Source: a virus
IMG/VR virus record: IMGVR_UViG_3300024517_000085
Location: 1 to 29,237 of that record
Reading direction: 5' to 3' (one strand)
Length of the DNA stretch: 29,237 bases
The position numbers and the translations under genes are program-made. Every line of letters starts with the position of its first letter. Positions within the stretch are counted from its first letter, which is position 1. Below the pieces are notes generated by a model that made no database searches, was not told the DNA's origin, and saw only the letters and a list, made by a program, of their open reading frames with translations. Shown here piece by piece: positions 5,240-24,907 of this stretch.

Positions 5240-5602
5240 ATGAGCCACGAAGTAGCACCCGGTCAAGAGTTGATCCACAGCGGTCGCCGCTATCCCGCCG
5301 GGGCCCTCGCCCCTGCCGGCTGCGACGTCGCCACCCTCAGCGCCCTGGGCGTGCTGGTCGAGGTGGTCGAAGCCAAACCGCCAGCCAGACCCGAGCCAGA
5401 GGCTGTGCGAGTCAGCGCCCGCGGAGGCTTCAACCCCGAGGACCCGGCGACCATCAAGCACGTCACGATCAAGGCGCTGCCTGCAGCCCTGGCTGGGGTG
5501 TCTGACCTGGACACGTTGCGCGCCATGCACTCGGCCGAGTCCCGCAAGGGTGGCCGCGACGCCATCGAGGAGCGCATTGGTGAGTTGGAGATCGCAGAAT
5601 GA
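5240..5602 (+). CDS. Head-tail connector region protein (Mu gp35-like position)
   Basis: A 120-residue protein with an AGGAG site before the ATG. The N-terminal 45 residues (HSGRRYPAGALAPAGCDVAT) look like a small beta barrel. The C-terminal 45 residues (LAGVSDLDTLRAMHSAE...GRDAIEERIGELE) form a short helical motif that recurs in small proteins of Mu-like head clusters and may bind partner proteins. Its stop overlaps the start of the next small gene (ATGA). Function is inferred only from position between capsid and neck genes. Confidence 0.5.
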   Translation: MSHEVAPGQELIHSGRRYPAGALAPAGCDVATLSALGVLVEVVEAKPPARPEPEAVRVSARGGFNPEDPATIKHVTIKALPAALAGVSDLDTLRAMHSAESRKGGRDAIEERIGELEIAE

Positions 5603-5775
5603 AGCTCCGCGCCCTGTGCAAACTTAGCCATGGAGGGGCCCAGCTTGCCCCTGGTGACGTTTTCGAGGAGCAAAGCGACCACTCCGCGGCCAAGCTGCTC
5701 GGGCGTGGCTGTGCGGCGCGTGTAGCGCCTGAGAAGAAGGCCGCCAAGAAGAAGGCCAAGGCCTCCGAAGAGTAG
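5599..5775 (+). CDS. Small basic head-region protein, 58 aa
   Basis: A short gene starting at the ATG that overlaps the previous stop as ATGA, and followed by the next gene after 9 bases. The 58-residue product begins MKLRALCKLSHGG and resembles the N-terminal barrel of its upstream neighbour (G-x-x-L-APGD-F). It ends in a Lys/Ala tail (PEKKAAKKKAKASEE) that could touch DNA or acidic surfaces. Position and coupling support a real gene. It may be a partial paralogue of the upstream gene. No function can be named. Confidence 0.6.
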   Translation: MKLRALCKLSHGGAQLAPGDVFEEQSDHSAAKLLGRGCAARVAPEKKAAKKKAKASEE

Positions 5776-5784
5776 GAGAGCGCC

Positions 5785-6279
5785 GTGGCATACAACGCAG
5801 ATCTAGCCACGGCCACTTCAATGGCTCCGCAGCTTGGCACCCTGAGCGCAAGCAGCACCCCAACCAGCACACAGGCAACAGTGGTTTGGACTGGTGCCTA
5901 TGACAAGGTGCGCGCGGCTCTGCTGGCGAACGGTATCAGCAGCAGCATCACAGCATCCACAGTGGCCGAGGCATGGGCGCAGCGCTGTGAGATGATGCTC
6001 ACATCGGGAGAGGTGCTGCTGGCCAAGGGATCCATCGGTGTCAATGCGGAGAGTACCGGGCCGGCGCTGATCAAGATGGGCGACACGATGATCGAGAGCC
6101 TGCCGACGATCCGAATCATGCTGCTCGACAACGGGGCCACCGCCGACAACGGCAGCACGGACTCCCGCATGGGCAGCCACTGGACGCGCGCCAAGGATCC
6201 CGATTGGGATCCCACTCCCGGCGGCGATGACGTGCCCTATGCTGCCGTCCCCATCTGGCCGGATAACTCGGACCTCTGA
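5785..6279 (+). CDS. Head-tail adaptor-like protein
   Basis: A 164-residue protein starting at GTG with an AGGAGAG site upstream. It lies where Mu-like phages carry the gp36 neck adaptor, just before the G-like morphogenesis gene, and its stop overlaps that gene's ATG (TGATG). The sequence has a helical centre (AWAQRCEMMLTSGEVLLAKG, then a GPALIKMGDTMIE helix) and an extended, Trp-rich C-terminus (SHWTRAKDPDWDPTPGG). Such a layout fits a connector between portal and tail. No named family is recognised with confidence. Confidence 0.5.
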   Translation: MAYNADLATATSMAPQLGTLSASSTPTSTQATVVWTGAYDKVRAALLANGISSSITASTVAEAWAQRCEMMLTSGEVLLAKGSIGVNAESTGPALIKMGDTMIESLPTIRIMLLDNGATADNGSTDSRMGSHWTRAKDPDWDPTPGGDDVPYAAVPIWPDNSDL

Positions 6280-20543: not shown

Positions 20544-20777
20544 TCAGCCTATCATGGGCTGCCTGAGATTGAAGAGCGGCGCGTCTCCAGTGATGCGGGC
20601 CTCTGCGATCTGGATGTATTCAGGATCAAGCTCAAAGCCCAGGAACCGGAAGCCCTCGCGCAAGGCTGCGATCCCGGTGGTGCCGCTGCCCGCGAAGGGG
20701 TCTAGGATCAGGCTGCCGGGTTGCCCGCCCACGAGCCGACACAGCCAAGACATCAAGTTGATCGGTTTTACAGTCAA
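20544..20777 (-). pseudogene. DNA methyltransferase, C-terminal fragment (SAM-binding motif I)
   Basis: The last ~77 residues of the methyltransferase: VKPINLMSWLCRLVGG, DPFAGSGTTGIAALREGFRF, LGFELDPEYIQIAEARI. This is the FxGxG SAM-binding region of beta-class DNA methyltransferases, directly continuing the HPT|VKP motif of the upstream part. The frame differs because of a 5-base excess between HPT and VKP. The only start is a TTG at 20777 overlapping the upstream TGA, without a ribosome site, so independent translation is doubtful. Either the enzyme is broken, it is made by rare restart or slippage, or the contig has an error. Confidence 0.75.
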
Positions 20778-22237
20778 GTAGGGTGCAGATTGAACACGAC
20801 ATCAGCCGTGCGACCTGCACCCGCTCGGGGATTCTGCATCCCCTTGGAGCCCTCCTTTCTTCCTACAGCGTCAGCCCCGGTTGCTTGCTTCTTCCTTTTC
20901 CCGCAGACGGCGCAGACGCTTTGACTTGACGACGATCCCGATGTGGCAGGGGCGGCATCGACCATAGAGCGGCCAGCCTTCCTTGCTGATGTACCAGTCG
21001 GCGGGGCCAACGGGCTTGAGGCATCCACAGACAGAGCAGGGCTTCCACCAGACACCGGCCCGAAGCTCGCACCCGCTGTGGATTCGCTTGTGGGTAACCC
21101 TGTCAACGGGTAGCAGGTTGCAGATCCTGTTGTCGAGTCTGTCTCCGTTGATGTGGTGGACGTCCCACCCGTCAGGGACTGGCCCGCTGGCCTGCTCCCA
21201 TGCCCACCTGTGGGCCATAACGAGCCGCCCGCCACGGTAGATCCTGTGGTATCCGGCCCGGCTGATGCTGCCCTCTCGGAGGTGGTGCTTTGGTTTCGGC
21301 CCGCGCTTTCCCATGTCGCCCCCTTCGGCTTACATGAGCATAACATGTTAGCGCGAGTTAAGCCCGCCTCACGCTCTGCCCTGGATGCCTTGGGGCACGC
21401 GAATACGTTGGCGGGCCATCGACCGAGGGACGATGATTCTATGTCCTGAAGCGGGGCCTTGGCGCTGCCGTAGATCGGGGAGTGGGTGTAACCTCCCACG
21501 GATCGCCCGCCTGGATCTTCCTGCGGCCCAGGCCAGCCAGATCGCTCGCCGTACCCGTAGCGGCACCCGTCGATATTCAGAGCGCCCGTGCCCCACTTCA
21601 GGACGTTTTCGGCGACTGTGCCATCCAGCGGCTTGCGGGCCAGGGCCCAATGTTCGAGGCAAGGCTTGAGCGCGGTGCCGTAGCCTTCCCAGGTGCGGGC
21701 GTCGTCGGTGGCTGGTGCTGTGATGGTGGCAGAAGCAAGACCCCCAAGGCCCGGGCCCCTGGAGTCAAGCACGCCCGCCTTGCCGTGGCCCGTGCGCTTC
21801 GGGGCGTGCCGGTTCAGCCCCACCACCTCACGCTCTGCGCCGTGATGCGCGTCGATGGCCTTGCCGACCGAGAGCGACTTCGGGAAGCCTTGCCACTGCT
21901 GGTGTGCGCCCAAGTCTCTGATCATCCACCCAGCATCCTCAAGCCCGCAGATCAATCGGTGGATCGTGCGCTGCCCGCCGAAGGCTACGATGTGCGCGCC
22001 GGGCTTGCAGACCCTCAGACACTCGCGCGCCCAGGTCACGCCGGGAACGGCAGCGTCCCACGCCTTGCCCATGAACCCGCCACCCTTGCGCCCGGTGTCG
22101 ATGTCGTCCCAGGTGCGGCACCGTCCGTCAGGGCTCAAGCCGTAGGGTGGATCTGTGACGATGGCATCTATGCAGGAGTCAGGGAGAGCGCGGAGCCTGT
22201 CGAGGCAGTCGCCTTGCTGGATGTCCCAGGTCCTCAC
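20774..22237 (-). CDS. DNA methyltransferase (N4-C/N6-A, beta-class order), interrupted
   Basis: Would transfer a methyl group from SAM to an exocyclic amine in DNA. Start GTG 22237 overlaps the previous stop and has GGAGG seven bases upstream. Residues 1-100 are typical: GDCLDRLRALPDSCIDAIVT, catalytic DPPYG at 29-33, FMGKAWD, CKPGAHIVAFGGQRT, then GFPKSLSVGKAID. The target domain follows, ending in ALNIDGCRYG and GRWPANVFACPKASRAEREA. From about residue 292 to 455 the frame runs through an inserted HNH gene and encodes a meaningless Ser/Thr/Gly-rich stretch. It then resumes with GADAVGRKEGS, NPRAGAGRT and NLHPT before a premature TGA. Motif IV before motif I gives the beta-class order. Activity in this state is doubtful. 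Confidence 0.8.
   Translation of the reverse strand: MRTWDIQQGDCLDRLRALPDSCIDAIVTDPPYGLSPDGRCRTWDDIDTGRKGGGFMGKAWDAAVPGVTWARECLRVCKPGAHIVAFGGQRTIHRLICGLEDAGWMIRDLGAHQQWQGFPKSLSVGKAIDAHHGAEREVVGLNRHAPKRTGHGKAGVLDSRGPGLGGLASATITAPATDDARTWEGYGTALKPCLEHWALARKPLDGTVAENVLKWGTGALNIDGCRYGYGERSGWPGPQEDPGGRSVGGYTHSPIYGSAKAPLQDIESSSLGRWPANVFACPKASRAEREAGLTRANMLCSCKPKGATWESAGRNQSTTSERAASAGPDTTGSTVAGGSLWPTGGHGSRPAGQSLTGGTSTTSTETDSTTGSATCYPLTGLPTSESTAGASFGPVSGGSPALSVDASSPLAPPTGTSARKAGRSMVDAAPATSGSSSSQSVCAVCGKRKKQATGADAVGRKEGSKGMQNPRAGAGRTADVVFNLHPT
20871..21314 (-). CDS. HNH homing-type endonuclease nested in the methyltransferase gene
   Basis: A 147-residue HNH nuclease of the phage homing type, in a different frame from the host gene. 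The HNH core is VHHINGDRLDNRICNL at 52-67 with H53/H54, N56, D58 and N62, followed by THKRIHSG (74-81). The N-terminal part has the familiar GYHRIYRGGRLVMAHRWAWE pattern. Zinc-binding Cys are at 93, 96 and 98 and at 120 and 123. The C-terminal tail is very basic (KSKRLRRLREK). AAGGGGG lies upstream of the ATG. Such genes cut an empty copy of their site and are copied in by repair. It fills nearly all of the ~480-base insert. Confidence 0.85.
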   Translation of the reverse strand: MGKRGPKPKHHLREGSISRAGYHRIYRGGRLVMAHRWAWEQASGPVPDGWDVHHINGDRLDNRICNLLPVDRVTHKRIHSGCELRAGVWWKPCSVCGCLKPVGPADWYISKEGWPLYGRCRPCHIGIVVKSKRLRRLREKEEASNRG

Positions 22238-22575
22238 CGCCGGGCCTCCCTGATCTCGATGGCCGATAGCTCGATCTCTCGCCCGCACGATCCGCACCGC
22301 CTCAGCCACTGGGCCGCCTTCAGCCGCCAGACCCTCGCGCAGTGGATGCACTTGGCCAGCCGCGAGCGCAGCAGGTAGGGGTTGGTGGGGTGCCTGAGCC
22401 TGTATTCGGGGATCCCGACCTTGTGCCTCCAGTAGCAGACAGATTGCGGGTTCACGTTCAGCCACTCGGCCACCTGCTGATCGCTCGCCATCGGGAAGGC
22501 CAACAGGACGTCGCCCAGGGCCCACCCTATAGAGGGGTAGGTGTGGCCCTTCCAGTGGACGCGCATGGGGCTCAC
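22234..22575 (-). CDS. HTH and zinc-finger protein
   Basis: A 113-residue protein, GTGA-coupled to both neighbours (a second start, ATG 22566, is possible). Residues 31-55 (SDQQVAEWLNVNPQSVCYWR) look like a helix-turn-helix of the terminase-small-subunit or resolvase type. A four-Cys zinc site follows: C76-x2-C79 and C94-x2-C97 (KCIHC; RCGSC). DNA binding is likely. It lies between the DpdA-like gene and the methyltransferase, so it may help target DNA modification or regulate it; that is inference. Confidence 0.6.
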   Translation of the reverse strand: MSPMRVHWKGHTYPSIGWALGDVLLAFPMASDQQVAEWLNVNPQSVCYWRHKVGIPEYRLRHPTNPYLLRSRLAKCIHCARVWRLKAAQWLRRCGSCGREIELSAIEIREARR

Positions 22576-23186
22576 GGCAGCGCGCCAAAGAGATGCTCCT
22601 GCCGTCTGCCAAGGTCCAGCCTCCGCAGTGTCTTACCAAAGCGCGTAACGCTGGTGCCGTCGAAGCTGTGCGCCCCGGCATCGTTGCACAGGTTGATCCG
22701 CTTCACACTGTTGACCCGCGCAACGTGGAAGTACGCGCCCCGCTCCTGCGCGAGCTTGCCCCAATGGCGCATCGTCTCCAGCTTCCACTCTGTTGTGCCG
22801 CCCAGGAAGATCCCGATCTCAGGCCCGATCAGGTGTCGAACGTCGCCGGGATCGATCCCGTCCTGCACCGCAAGCAGCGGCGGGGCAACGGCAGACACCC
22901 GATCAAGCCAGGACAGCGAGAAACGAAGCGACGACAGCCCACCCGCCACAATATCGGGCAGGGTGATCCAGTCTGCCCCGCGCCCCATCTTCGCCAACGC
23001 GCACTCAAAGGCTCCCACGTCGAACGGTTCGCCCCGCTGGTAGCAACTCCACGCCCCGTTGTCTAGAGCGTAGGGGAACCCCTCAGAGCGCAGCACAGCG
23101 CCCGCAACCACAAGCACCCGCCAGCCTGCCTCACGCATGGCGGCGAGTGTTGTGCGCGTTCCTGTTCTGCTGGCGTAGGCTTGCAT
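22572..23186 (-). CDS. dpdA: DpdA-like DNA transglycosylase (TGT superfamily)
   Basis: A 204-residue protein of the tRNA-guanine transglycosylase superfamily, DpdA type. DpdA swaps guanine in DNA for preQ0. Start ATG 23186 overlaps the cupin stop (TGATG); the longer open frame upstream is shadow sequence. Key motifs in order: YALDNGAW with D42 (the nucleophile position), TLPDIV with D78, LLAVQDG at 105-110, FLGGTTEWK at 128-135, HVARVNSVKRI at 154-164, and SFDGTSVTRFG at 174-184. It is shorter than typical DpdA proteins because the tRNA-binding domain of TGTs is lacking, as expected for a DNA substrate. QueC lies two genes upstream in the same operon, which strongly supports the role. Confidence 0.8.
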   Translation of the reverse strand: MQAYASRTGTRTTLAAMREAGWRVLVVAGAVLRSEGFPYALDNGAWSCYQRGEPFDVGAFECALAKMGRGADWITLPDIVAGGLSSLRFSLSWLDRVSAVAPPLLAVQDGIDPGDVRHLIGPEIGIFLGGTTEWKLETMRHWGKLAQERGAYFHVARVNSVKRINLCNDAGAHSFDGTSVTRFGKTLRRLDLGRRQEHLFGALP

Positions 23187-23527
23187 CACGCGCCAAGCTC
23201 CCGCCAAGACCAGCCGCGCCGCTGCGGCCCGCGGATGCAGAGAGTGAGGCACCCTCTTGGCCCCACGCGCAGGCTGTGCACTTCGGACGCTCTGCGGAAG
23301 GACGCGCGGCCGAGGGCCCGCCAACAGGCAGCACCGGGGCGGGCCTCTGAATAGCCCCCACGCAGCACCACCGTTACGAAGTCCCATGGGTGATCGTGAC
23401 CCTGGATCTTGGCTCCGCGCGCGAAGCGGTGCAGGTACACCCCGAGCGGGCGAGAGTCGAGCAGGGCCAGCCGCTCCATCGTGGGGCTGGCCGATGATTC
23501 GCTCGGGAAGATCGGACGCCACCTCAC
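23186..23527 (-). CDS. Cupin-fold protein between queC and dpdA
   Basis: A 113-residue single-domain cupin. I chose GTG 23527, which overlaps the QueC stop (GTGA). The pattern is GVYLHRFARGAKIQGHDHPW, then DFVTVVLRGGYSEARPG and a late VHSLRVGPRGCLTLCI followed by RRGWSW. This is a known small cupin type often found in phages, with likely metal ligands in the HDHPWDF and E-VHSL motifs. Its activity is not known. Being coupled between QueC and the DpdA-like gene suggests it acts on preQ0 or on the modified base, but that is inference. Confidence 0.7.
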   Translation of the reverse strand: MRWRPIFPSESSASPTMERLALLDSRPLGVYLHRFARGAKIQGHDHPWDFVTVVLRGGYSEARPGAACWRALGRASFRRASEVHSLRVGPRGCLTLCIRGPQRRGWSWRELGA

Positions 23528-24156
23528 GGTGCTAACTCCCGGCAGCGGATCCCCGCGCGGCACTCGTCACAGACACCGCAGGGGGCTGGGATGCCCCTCG
23601 CCCTAGCCTCGCACGCGCCGCAGGTTCCGCAGGGTTCCTCGCCGCCCGCGTAGCAAGACCATGAGAGATCGAGCAGCGCGGACCCTCCGTACCTCTGCGC
23701 GAACCGATATACCCCACGCTTGTCCAGGTCGATCAGCGGGGTAATGATCTTGCAGGGTGCCAACTCTGTCCGCATCTTGTCGAAGAACTCCGGGCGGCAG
23801 TCCTCAAACACCGCCCAGTCATCGCGACAAGACCCCATCACCACCGCATCTGGCCCCGGAAACAAGGCGGCAGCTTGGCGCAACATGATCGCATTGCGAT
23901 CCGGCACCACAACGCCGGCCCCGGAGAGCTTGCCTTCAAGGTCGGTGAGCGCGGATCCCGCAATCCGACCCAGCGGCACAAACCACTTGTTGACCCCGTA
24001 GACGTTGCACAGGCGAGACATGGCGACCCGCTCCCGCCCCTCGTGGCGCTGCCCATAGGTGAAGAACACCGCATCAACTGCGCGCCCGTATTCAATAGAG
24101 GCCCAGGCTAGGCAGGCTGCGGAGTCCATGCCGCCTGATAGTAAGACCCTGATCAC
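23524..24156 (-). CDS. queC: 7-cyano-7-deazaguanine synthase QueC
   Basis: A 210-residue ATP-dependent enzyme that turns 7-carboxy-7-deazaguanine and ammonia into preQ0. Start GTG 24156 overlaps the previous stop. Hallmarks: RVLLSGGMDSAACLAWA (PP-loop, residues 3-19), DAVFFTYGQRHEGRERVA, VVPDRNAIMLRQAAA, VMGSCRDDWAVFEDCRPEFF, ITPLIDLDKRGVYRFA, and the zinc site WSCYAGGEEPCGTCGACEAR. After it comes an extra CGVCDECRAGIRC cluster that ordinary QueC lacks. Feeding preQ0 to the DpdA-like enzyme is the obvious use here. FolE, QueD and QueE are not in the window, so earlier steps may come from the host or another part of the genome. Confidence 0.92.
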   Translation of the reverse strand: MIRVLLSGGMDSAACLAWASIEYGRAVDAVFFTYGQRHEGRERVAMSRLCNVYGVNKWFVPLGRIAGSALTDLEGKLSGAGVVVPDRNAIMLRQAAALFPGPDAVVMGSCRDDWAVFEDCRPEFFDKMRTELAPCKIITPLIDLDKRGVYRFAQRYGGSALLDLSWSCYAGGEEPCGTCGACEARARGIPAPCGVCDECRAGIRCRELAP

Positions 24157-24446
24157 GGCTTCTCTCCGCACTCCCAGCACCCGCCCGGATGGTGGTTGGT
24201 GGCGGCGCAGTGCGGGCAAGTCCAAGGCTCGCCCTCGCCACGGCAGATCGCGATCGTCTCCTTCATTGCCTCCGCGCAGTCCTGGCAGATCACCGAGACG
24301 ATCAGCACGGGCGGATCCATCTGCGCGCGAAGCTCGCACGGCACGGCGACGTTGACCCCGATCCGGTAGCTGCACCAATCGCAGACGCCGTCGCCCGCCT
24401 CGACTGCGTGATCGGCTGCCGCCTGCATCGACTCAAACGACCTCAC
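24153..24446 (-). CDS. Multi-zinc-ribbon protein
   Basis: A 97-residue protein, GTGA-coupled to RusA and to QueC. It has three clear CxxC pairs plus more Cys: C22/C25 (CDWC), C54/C57 (CQDC), C77/C80 (CPHC) and C90/C93 (CWEC), with single Cys at 37 and 68. Two zinc ribbons are likely. It may bind nucleic acid or a partner. No named family is recognised. Confidence 0.6.
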   Translation of the reverse strand: MRSFESMQAAADHAVEAGDGVCDWCSYRIGVNVAVPCELRAQMDPPVLIVSVICQDCAEAMKETIAICRGEGEPWTCPHCAATNHHPGGCWECGEKP

Positions 24447-24907
24447 CGCAGCGCCTCGACAGCATCGCCCCACATGAGGCGAACCTGGACGCTTGGGCCC
24501 TCGCCCTCTGCGCCGAATGTTTTCACGGCATGGACGGCGCAGATCGTGGAGTCGTCGCGCAGGATCCCCGCTCGCTGGATGGCGTCGGCCGCGCACTTGA
24601 TCACGTTGTCGAGGTCTGGCCTTGACGTGTGAACCACTCGCCCAGGGTCGCACTGGCAGGCTCGCTTGTGACTACAGATCAGCCGCTGCGGGCGCGTGAA
24701 GATCGCCACAACCGTGAGTTCACAGCCCTTGATCAGCATCGACCGGTCACCCCACTCGCGAGCCATCACCGCCGCGGCGTCCATCTCCCAGGACGCTGTA
24801 GGCTTCGGAGTGAAGGCGATCACACCCTTGCCGCGCCGGGCGAACCGGGGCCGCCCCTTGCCGACCGGCTGGCCGGGGATCGTGCATGTCCAGACCTGAT
24901 CGTTCAC
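24443..24907 (-). CDS. rusA: RusA-type Holliday junction resolvase
   Basis: A 154-residue endonuclease that cuts four-way DNA junctions made during phage recombination. Family motifs: PGQPVGKGRPRF at 11-22, RPDLDNVIKCAADAI at 97-110 with acidic D98 and D100, and ILRDDSTI at 115-122. Its length is normal. The ATG overlaps the previous gene's stop by four bases. Coupled to the Erf/SSB recombination genes upstream. Confidence 0.93.
   Translation of the reverse strand: MNDQVWTCTIPGQPVGKGRPRFARRGKGVIAFTPKPTASWEMDAAAVMAREWGDRSMLIKGCELTVVAIFTRPQRLICSHKRACQCDPGRVVHTSRPDLDNVIKCAADAIQRAGILRDDSTICAVHAVKTFGAEGEGPSVQVRLMWGDAVEALR

Follow-up and report, generated by a model that had tools for sequence, protein, structure and literature searches.

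We analysed a 29,237-base virus record (IMG/VR IMGVR_UViG_3300024517_000085, positions 1 to 29,237; the window hereafter means this whole stretch, which may be incomplete) and found on its minus strand a compact three-gene cassette that probably serves 7-deazaguanine modification of phage DNA, with QueC boosting preQ0 (7-cyano-7-deazaguanine) from a host precursor and a miniature relative of the phage transglycosylase DpdA inserting the base. QueC enzymes convert 7-carboxy-7-deazaguanine, through the amide 7-amido-7-deazaguanine (ADG), to preQ0, and the window's QueC, recognized by homology and motifs, would do so with 7-carboxy-7-deazaguanine of the host. The 204-residue DpdA relative is predicted to be a triosephosphate isomerase (TIM) barrel that keeps the tRNA-guanine transglycosylase (TGT) positions D42, D78, Q108, G129-G130, and nucleophile D176, is pared down by the C-terminal zinc-binding region of tRNA TGTs, and would replace guanine in phage DNA by preQ0 or ADG. 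A cupin encoded between the two may modify the base further, either ahead of its insertion or afterward, and the earlier pathway steps would be supplied by the host, judging from the absence of their genes from the window. The likely benefit would be escape from nucleases that recognize guanine-containing sites; we infer both DNA as the target and protection from restriction from the genes. In CAjan and Rosebush, dPreQ0 replaces about 28 to 32% of G (parts of PMC6884629), and in MED16, where only dpdA was detected, dADG amounts to ∼0.13% of G and the enzymes tested were not noticeably affected (parts of PMC8306585); any protective effect here would depend on the density of DNA modification. 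The cassette comprises the following genes.

23524..24156, minus strand: QueC (7-cyano-7-deazaguanine synthase), 210 aa, GTG start (PF06508, PDB 3bl5, motif alignment)
23186..23527, minus strand: metal-cupin-like protein of 113 aa, flanked by QueC and the DpdA-like gene (phrog_4786, "cysteine dioxygenase," E = 3.4e-20)
22572..23186, minus strand: predicted compact DpdA/TGT-like transglycosylase, 204 aa (phrog_15826, profile alignments, model)

These genes belong to a minus-strand run of mostly overlapping genes: Erf, single-stranded DNA-binding protein (SSB), RusA, a Cys-rich protein, QueC, the cupin, the DpdA/TGT-like protein, a helix-turn-helix (HTH)/zinc-ribbon-like protein, and then a DNA methyltransferase. 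The joints are GTGA at 24156 (Cys-rich/QueC), GTGA at 23527 (QueC/cupin), and TGATG at 23188-23184 (cupin/DpdA-like), and these overlaps suggest that the cassette genes are translationally coupled. A preliminary description, made from the letters of the DNA, had put QueC and a DpdA-like protein two genes apart in one coupled operon; the overlaps agree with the coupling, and exactly one gene, that of the cupin-like protein, lies in between. Its coordinates for both genes were correct and every motif that it quoted was found in the translations: DNGAW, QDG, GGTTEWK, HVARVNS, and SFDGTS in the 204-residue protein, and SGGMDS, EDCRPEF, and the zinc motif CY-x6-C-x2-C-x2-C in QueC. It had also reported that FolE, QueD, and QueE are absent from the window, and local hidden Markov models (HMMs; E up to 1e-5) indeed found none of QueD, QueE, FolE, YhhQ, and QueF there; a Pfam search of the window found no radical SAM protein.

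That the first gene encodes a real QueC, as the preliminary description held, is borne out by Pfam (PF06508, E = 2.8e-37) and by a match to a solved QueC in the PDB (3bl5, E = 3.6e-19). The PDB matches also include another QueC (7.1e-16) and the QueC-like protein Cap9 (9nto, 9.7e-16), and the protein matches the PADLOC "QueC" model PDLC00911. Canonical QueC proteins (cluster 1) are described as sharing SGGxDS, YxQxHxxE, VPxRN, YPDC, a conserved K, and a C-rich zinc motif with an essential Y (parts of PMC13329287). In the window's QueC, SGGxDS, YxQxH, and VPxRN are retained, as are the K and the C-rich zinc motif, whose first Cys is followed by Y; the spacing in this motif is C-x7-C, not x8, and the E of YxQxHxxE is shifted one position later. 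We read it as a probably working but divergent QueC.

For the 204-residue protein, single-sequence searches yielded one family, phrog_15826 of PHROG (E = 8.2e-44), which is labeled "unknown function"; there was no match in Pfam or NCBIfam, and no relative in the PDB up to E = 10. We aligned 65 rows of this compact family, taken from 101 references (the window and 100 loci, numbered with L), leaving out short sequences (L069, L128, L134, and L140), near-duplicates, and two sequences with an internal stop (L016 and L076). D42, P77, D78, Q108, G129, G130, K135, H154, and D176 are invariant in this alignment. Exchange of the base by TGT-family enzymes proceeds via a covalent aspartate intermediate; we take the Zymomonas mobilis TGT counterparts of the compact-family residues to be D102, D156, Q203, G229-G230, and the nucleophile D280, and presume that the aligned D, Q, GG, and D have catalytic and base-binding roles. 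The C-terminal zinc site of tRNA TGTs consists of three Cys and one His, and since the compact protein continues for only 28 residues beyond D176, none of which is Cys, this zinc region is missing.

Profile-to-profile comparison links the compact family to both DpdA and TGT. Against eight phage DpdAs, hhalign gave the 65-row profile a probability of 76 over 144 columns and paired LDNGAW with LDSGAF, LGG with LGG or IGG, and SFDGTS with SCDSSS; the eight-row set had been built because a comparison with the single sequence of Saguaro DpdA was weak (probability 28, 86 columns). H154 aligned with the H of CAjan LHAFG, a candidate for the conserved DpdA histidine, which is position 196 in 9g (parts of PMC6884629). 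With 11 bacterial TGTs the probability was 72, and VQDG/VQGG, LGGT/IGGL, and SFDGTSVTR/MFDCVMPTR were paired, in a local alignment that leaves D42 outside and in which D78 adjoins a gap. Repeating the comparisons with query-anchored columns raised the probabilities to 84 (DpdA) and 78 (TGT), and none of 40 column shuffles reached the real scores (best 28.2 versus 44.8 for DpdA and 20.7 versus 43.4 for TGT), while ribulose-phosphate epimerase, an unrelated barrel family used as control, reached a probability of only 7. The TGT set came from 11 of 12 loci and the epimerase set from 9 of 10, as L166 and L177, respectively, had no motif-bearing frame. Compared directly by the same method, phage DpdA and TGT score a probability of only 2, and the compact family therefore seems to lie between them. 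The preliminary assignment to the TGT superfamily, with kinship to phage DpdA, thus agrees with the hhalign comparisons and their controls, and the homology to DpdA would hold at the superfamily level only. Against PDB sequences, the 65-row profile found no relative (best E = 0.31, a lyase); Cap10, a TGT-like protein discussed below, was absent from these matches, an absence that carries no inference.

The structure prediction proposed in the preliminary description gave a confident TIM barrel (AlphaFold; predicted local distance difference test [pLDDT] 95.3, predicted template modeling score [pTM] 0.91) whose superposition with TGT covers 201 residues (Z 15.0, root mean square deviation 3.1). 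This much stood; as a discriminator, the prediction did not, because pyruvate kinases score up to Z 15.8 and the fold alone is thus not decisive. We rejected the fold comparison as proof of TGT identity, given that TIM barrels of other function score equally. In a viral fold library, the 24 matches at E ≤ 0.001 comprised 6 named queuine tRNA-ribosyltransferase, 1 named otherwise, and 17 without a functional name.

Genomic linkage, present in the smaller part of the loci, would tie the compact protein to 7-deazaguanine chemistry. A profile scan of viral contigs returned at least 515 confirmed compact-family relatives among 599 matching stretches, and a one-pattern scan of a species-genome collection returned 55 among 68. 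In 50 whole viral contigs (L013-L062) searched with Pfam, PF06508 (QueC) occurs in 17, and in 15 of these it lies at most 150 bp from the DpdA-like gene, compared to 1.24 expected by random placement. PF01242 (QueD) was found in four contigs, each time abutting the DpdA-like gene; PF02592 (Vut_1, the preQ0-transporter/YhhQ family) in two, adjacent to it in both; and FolE (GTP cyclohydrolase) in two, abutting it in one. Radical SAM proteins were seen in five contigs (two over the cut-off, one of those far from the DpdA-like gene), and QueF in none of the 50 over the Pfam cut-off. In total, at least one supply gene is near the DpdA-like gene in 25 of the 50, counting L055 and L056, which enter only via a sub-threshold radical SAM match. 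For tallies by distance we used local HMMs on the best 80 of the at least 515 viral relatives: a supply gene (QueC, QueD, FolE, or YhhQ) lies within 150 bp in 28 of these 80 loci and within 3 kb in 32 (26 and 29 of 67 after removal of near-duplicates). The corresponding counts are 4 and 5 of 55 for species-genome loci and 3 and 3 of 8 for annotated phage and plasmid loci, and over all loci the supply matches share the strand of the DpdA-like gene in 46 of 46 cases. Most members with a visible supply gene have a single one, and some have several. The position of QueC varies by lineage, upstream in some and downstream in others, and at least six changes between QueC and other neighbor states are implied by a quick tree built from 102 rows (L129, L141, L143, L086, and L097 being additionally left out).

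Further neighbors appear in annotated phages, in which a YhhQ-family gene (Majeke, ReqiPine5, and Aoka) or a QueF-like gene (Aoka) is found; Majeke gene 53 (Vut_1/YhhQ family) and Aoka gene 39 (QueF-like) adjoin genes already annotated "DpdA-like." A gene of the PAPS (phosphoadenosine phosphosulfate) reductase family lies near the DpdA-like gene in R6L, pPME5, and ReqiPine5. A gene resembling, by eye, a C5-cytosine DNA methyltransferase lies within 3 kb of the DpdA-like gene (median gap, 3 bp) in L013, L018, L020, L023, L044, L049, L050, L072, and L135. In L007, the gene at 5588-5980, just before a distant relative, by eye resembles what we take to be a nucleoside 2-deoxyribosyltransferase. 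The compact family is also present in 173 plasmid records, 146 of them from Pseudomonas, with identities of up to 63% among the matches listed and the product name "hypothetical protein."

The complete triad of QueC, cupin, and DpdA-like gene recurs in the viral contigs L182, L023, and L180 (L179 being the same contig), whose cupins are 71%, 60%, and 57% identical to the window copy, respectively. Among the residues invariant in the four cupin rows are H44, H46, E61, and H84, the HxH...E...H set, and although the cupin model is weak (pLDDT 67.6), its best Foldseek matches are cupins such as TM1459. Conserved in four contigs, the cupin apparently belongs to the cassette. The window's nearest relatives in the tree (L013, L014, L020, and L023; Shimodaira-Hasegawa-like approximate likelihood ratio test [SH-aLRT] 82, not starred) all have QueC upstream, and the cupin was not found in L013, L014, and L020. 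QueD occurs only in L183 among seven related contigs (L013, L014, L020, L023, L180, L182, and L183), four of which are under 20 kb; in L182 and L023 (∼38 kb each), neither QueD nor a radical SAM protein was found, and FolE is absent from L023 and from the 10.6 kb examined of L182. When viral contigs were scanned for relatives of the window's QueC, the 17 found comprised 4 accompanied in the stretch by a compact DpdA, 3 by a canonical DpdA, and 10 by neither; the three with canonical DpdA (L191, L192, and L193) all have QueD and FolE in that stretch as well. We considered the cupin as a generic marker of such cassettes and dropped the idea, its relatives occurring in 53 phage records and its association with QueC being known only for the four-contig triad. 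A different protein, cupin-like by eye, adjoins the compact DpdA-like gene in L026, L032, L035, and L039 (median gap, 3 bp; the neighbor in L026, in one stretch, had no NCBIfam match), hinting that cupins joined the compact enzyme more than once. It is possible, though rather unlikely, that the three genes form a pathway to an undescribed hypermodified guanine, in which the cupin would act on the cyano or amide group, with host 7-carboxy-7-deazaguanine as feed.

Several observations weigh against reading these genes as a DNA modification cassette: (i) no supply gene is seen within 3 kb in 48 of the 80 viral and 50 of the 55 genome loci, many of whose flanks are cut; (ii) 22 Burkholderiaceae loci in the range L093-L147, all between L099 and L128, have a PAPS/DndC-like gene 53 to 139 bp downstream, and no QueC was found in them (in one, L125, the downstream gene matches TIGR03183 DndC with E = 2.1e-44, below the cut-off of that model); (iii) the 21 phage records matched by the 204-residue protein include no CAjan- or Rosebush-type phage; (iv) the epimerase control scores 25.5, above its own 40 shuffles (at most 18.7), and part of the profile signal is therefore common to barrels; (v) in the fold comparison, pyruvate kinases tie with or outscore TGT, and Foldseek ranks epimerases first and TGT 25th; and (vi) QueC scores 113.9 bits, compared to the TIGR00364 cut-off of 150.3 (NCBIfam), and has FEDC in place of YPDC. 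FEDC is common to five of six close QueC relatives in the alignment, L013 having FPDC, and an Escherichia coli QueC with Y131F retained partial activity (parts of PMC13329287).

These genes can also be explained in other ways, the least improbable being tRNA modification, which we consider improbable: QueC would raise preQ0 and the small transglycosylase would alter host or phage tRNA in favor of phage translation. TGTs act on tRNA, hosts use QueC for queuosine, and the profile alignment is about equally good with TGT and with DpdA, yet the protein ends 28 residues past D176, without the TGT zinc region, its surroundings are DNA genes (RusA, SSB, Erf, and a methyltransferase), genes resembling C5 DNA methyltransferases by eye lie near relatives in nine loci, and relatives occur in mycobacteriophages, whose host genus is described as having no Q pathway (parts of PMC6884629). 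Slightly less probable still is conjugation of a deazaguanine to protein, in an antidefense or moron role, as by Cap9 and Cap10 of type IV CBASS (cyclic oligonucleotide-based antiphage signaling system). There, a QueC-like Cap9 and a TGT-like Cap10 form a pair, as QueC and the compact DpdA do here, Cap10 is a TGT-family enzyme (parts of PMC11996544), and the product is a protein conjugate (parts of PMC13329287 and PMC11996544). In the PDB search given above, Cap9 is almost as close a match to the window's QueC as QueC itself, and the match to PDLC00911 has also been counted for this alternative. However, the window's QueC keeps VPxRN and has the canonical CY where Cap9 has CE, that is, CY(x)6CxxCxxCxA compared to the Cap9 zinc motif CE(x)6CxxCxxCxD (parts of PMC13329287). 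Cap9 adjoins a CD-NTase (cGAS/DncV-like nucleotidyltransferase) in 67% of neighborhoods according to the same source, whereas a Pfam scan of 10 flanking proteins (E up to 1) turned up none, and the partners of the compact relatives (QueD, FolE, YhhQ, and QueF) are suppliers of free base.

A looser association, in which QueC would serve only to raise queuosine or preQ0 of the host while the barrel protein had an unrelated function, has a smaller chance again. Singleton phage QueC-like proteins can fall in other subfamilies (parts of PMC6884629), but the tight spacing of QueC in 15 of 17 QueC-bearing contigs, in two gene orders, and the interchange of QueC, QueD, FolE, YhhQ, and QueF next to one kind of barrel protein speak against this. 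Lowest of all we place an inactive remnant of a DpdA system: the frame of the neighboring methyltransferase is broken and the pathway is incomplete in the window, but the three cassette frames are intact, the cassette is conserved in other contigs, and the catalytic positions are invariant across the 65 relatives.

Taken as a cassette for DNA modification, the genes resemble those of CAjan, the Saguaro/Rosebush type, and 9g, in which QueC is likewise linked to a TGT-superfamily enzyme, and the motifs LD(S/N)GA, GG, and S(V/C/F)D follow in the same order in phage DpdAs and the compact protein. Yet the eight phage DpdAs compared have 300 to 363 residues and QueD, QueE, or FolE nearby, whereas the window has 204 residues, with QueC alone and a cupin; the likeness to a CAjan-type pair drawn in the preliminary description did not hold, since CAjan DpdA has 306 residues and lies near QueD and FolE, and the protein described here belongs to a separate compact lineage. 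The same compact family includes the "DpdA-like tRNA-guanine transglycosylase" of Fishburnevirus (Majeke) and Arthrobacter phages (Aoka and Sonali), at 34 to 35% identity over 70 to 77% of the query; the Majeke gene stands beside YhhQ and the Aoka gene beside QueF and YhhQ, and neither, unlike that of the window, beside QueC. The singleton-DpdA phages MED16, Salmonella 7-11, and Orion would likewise have to draw 7-deazaguanine from the host or environment, but published papers give them no QueC and they are absent from the 21 phage records matched; we set them apart by description. Some dADG was reported in the DNA of MED16 and Salmonella 7-11 (parts of PMC6884629 and PMC8306585), and no modification was seen in that of Orion (parts of PMC6884629).

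Phage 7-deazaguanine modification (parts of PMC6884629) and the "DpdA-like" annotation of compact relatives in some actinobacteriophages are thus already known. In the open-access literature, surveyed mostly at title level and without supplements, we found no description of a compact family with swapping supply genes or of the QueC-cupin-DpdA triad, and nothing on DpdA together with phosphoadenosine phosphosulfate reductase. The several kinds of neighbors would tie a large family of "unknown function," PHROG 15826, to 7-deazaguanine chemistry, and suggest that many phages may need only a transglycosylase of ∼205 residues and one supply gene or a few, leaving the remaining steps to the host. 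If this is true, some lone phage QueC, QueD, and YhhQ genes would be explained, the compact protein would be a candidate minimal enzyme for DNA base swapping, and the cupin a candidate tailoring enzyme.

Elsewhere in the window, PHROG labels name a portal, a head maturation protease, a scaffold, a major head protein, a tape measure, and an endolysin, and none of them names Mu, to which the preliminary description had likened the head. The genes flanking the cassette are listed here.

24443..24907, minus strand: RusA Holliday junction resolvase, same gene run (PF05866, E = 4.2e-21)
24153..24653, minus strand: Cys-rich protein, overlaps the QueC start (GTGA overlap)
22234..22575, minus strand: small helix-turn-helix/zinc-ribbon-like protein, overlaps the end of the DpdA-like gene (HTH_23, E = 0.0045, below cut-off)
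20544..22240, minus strand: N6/N4 DNA methyltransferase in two frames, context outside the cassette (Pfam, PHROG)

The Cys-rich protein had no family above the cut-off in Pfam, PHROG, and NCBIfam. The two frames of the methyltransferase gene part at the HPT/VKP motif (20774-20777). Nested inside the gene, in a different frame, is an HNH_3 open reading frame (20871-21314); an Rfam scan of the window gave no match for an intron around it. A relative of the HTH/zinc-ribbon-like protein with 50% identity lies directly downstream of the DpdA-like gene in the viral contig L013.

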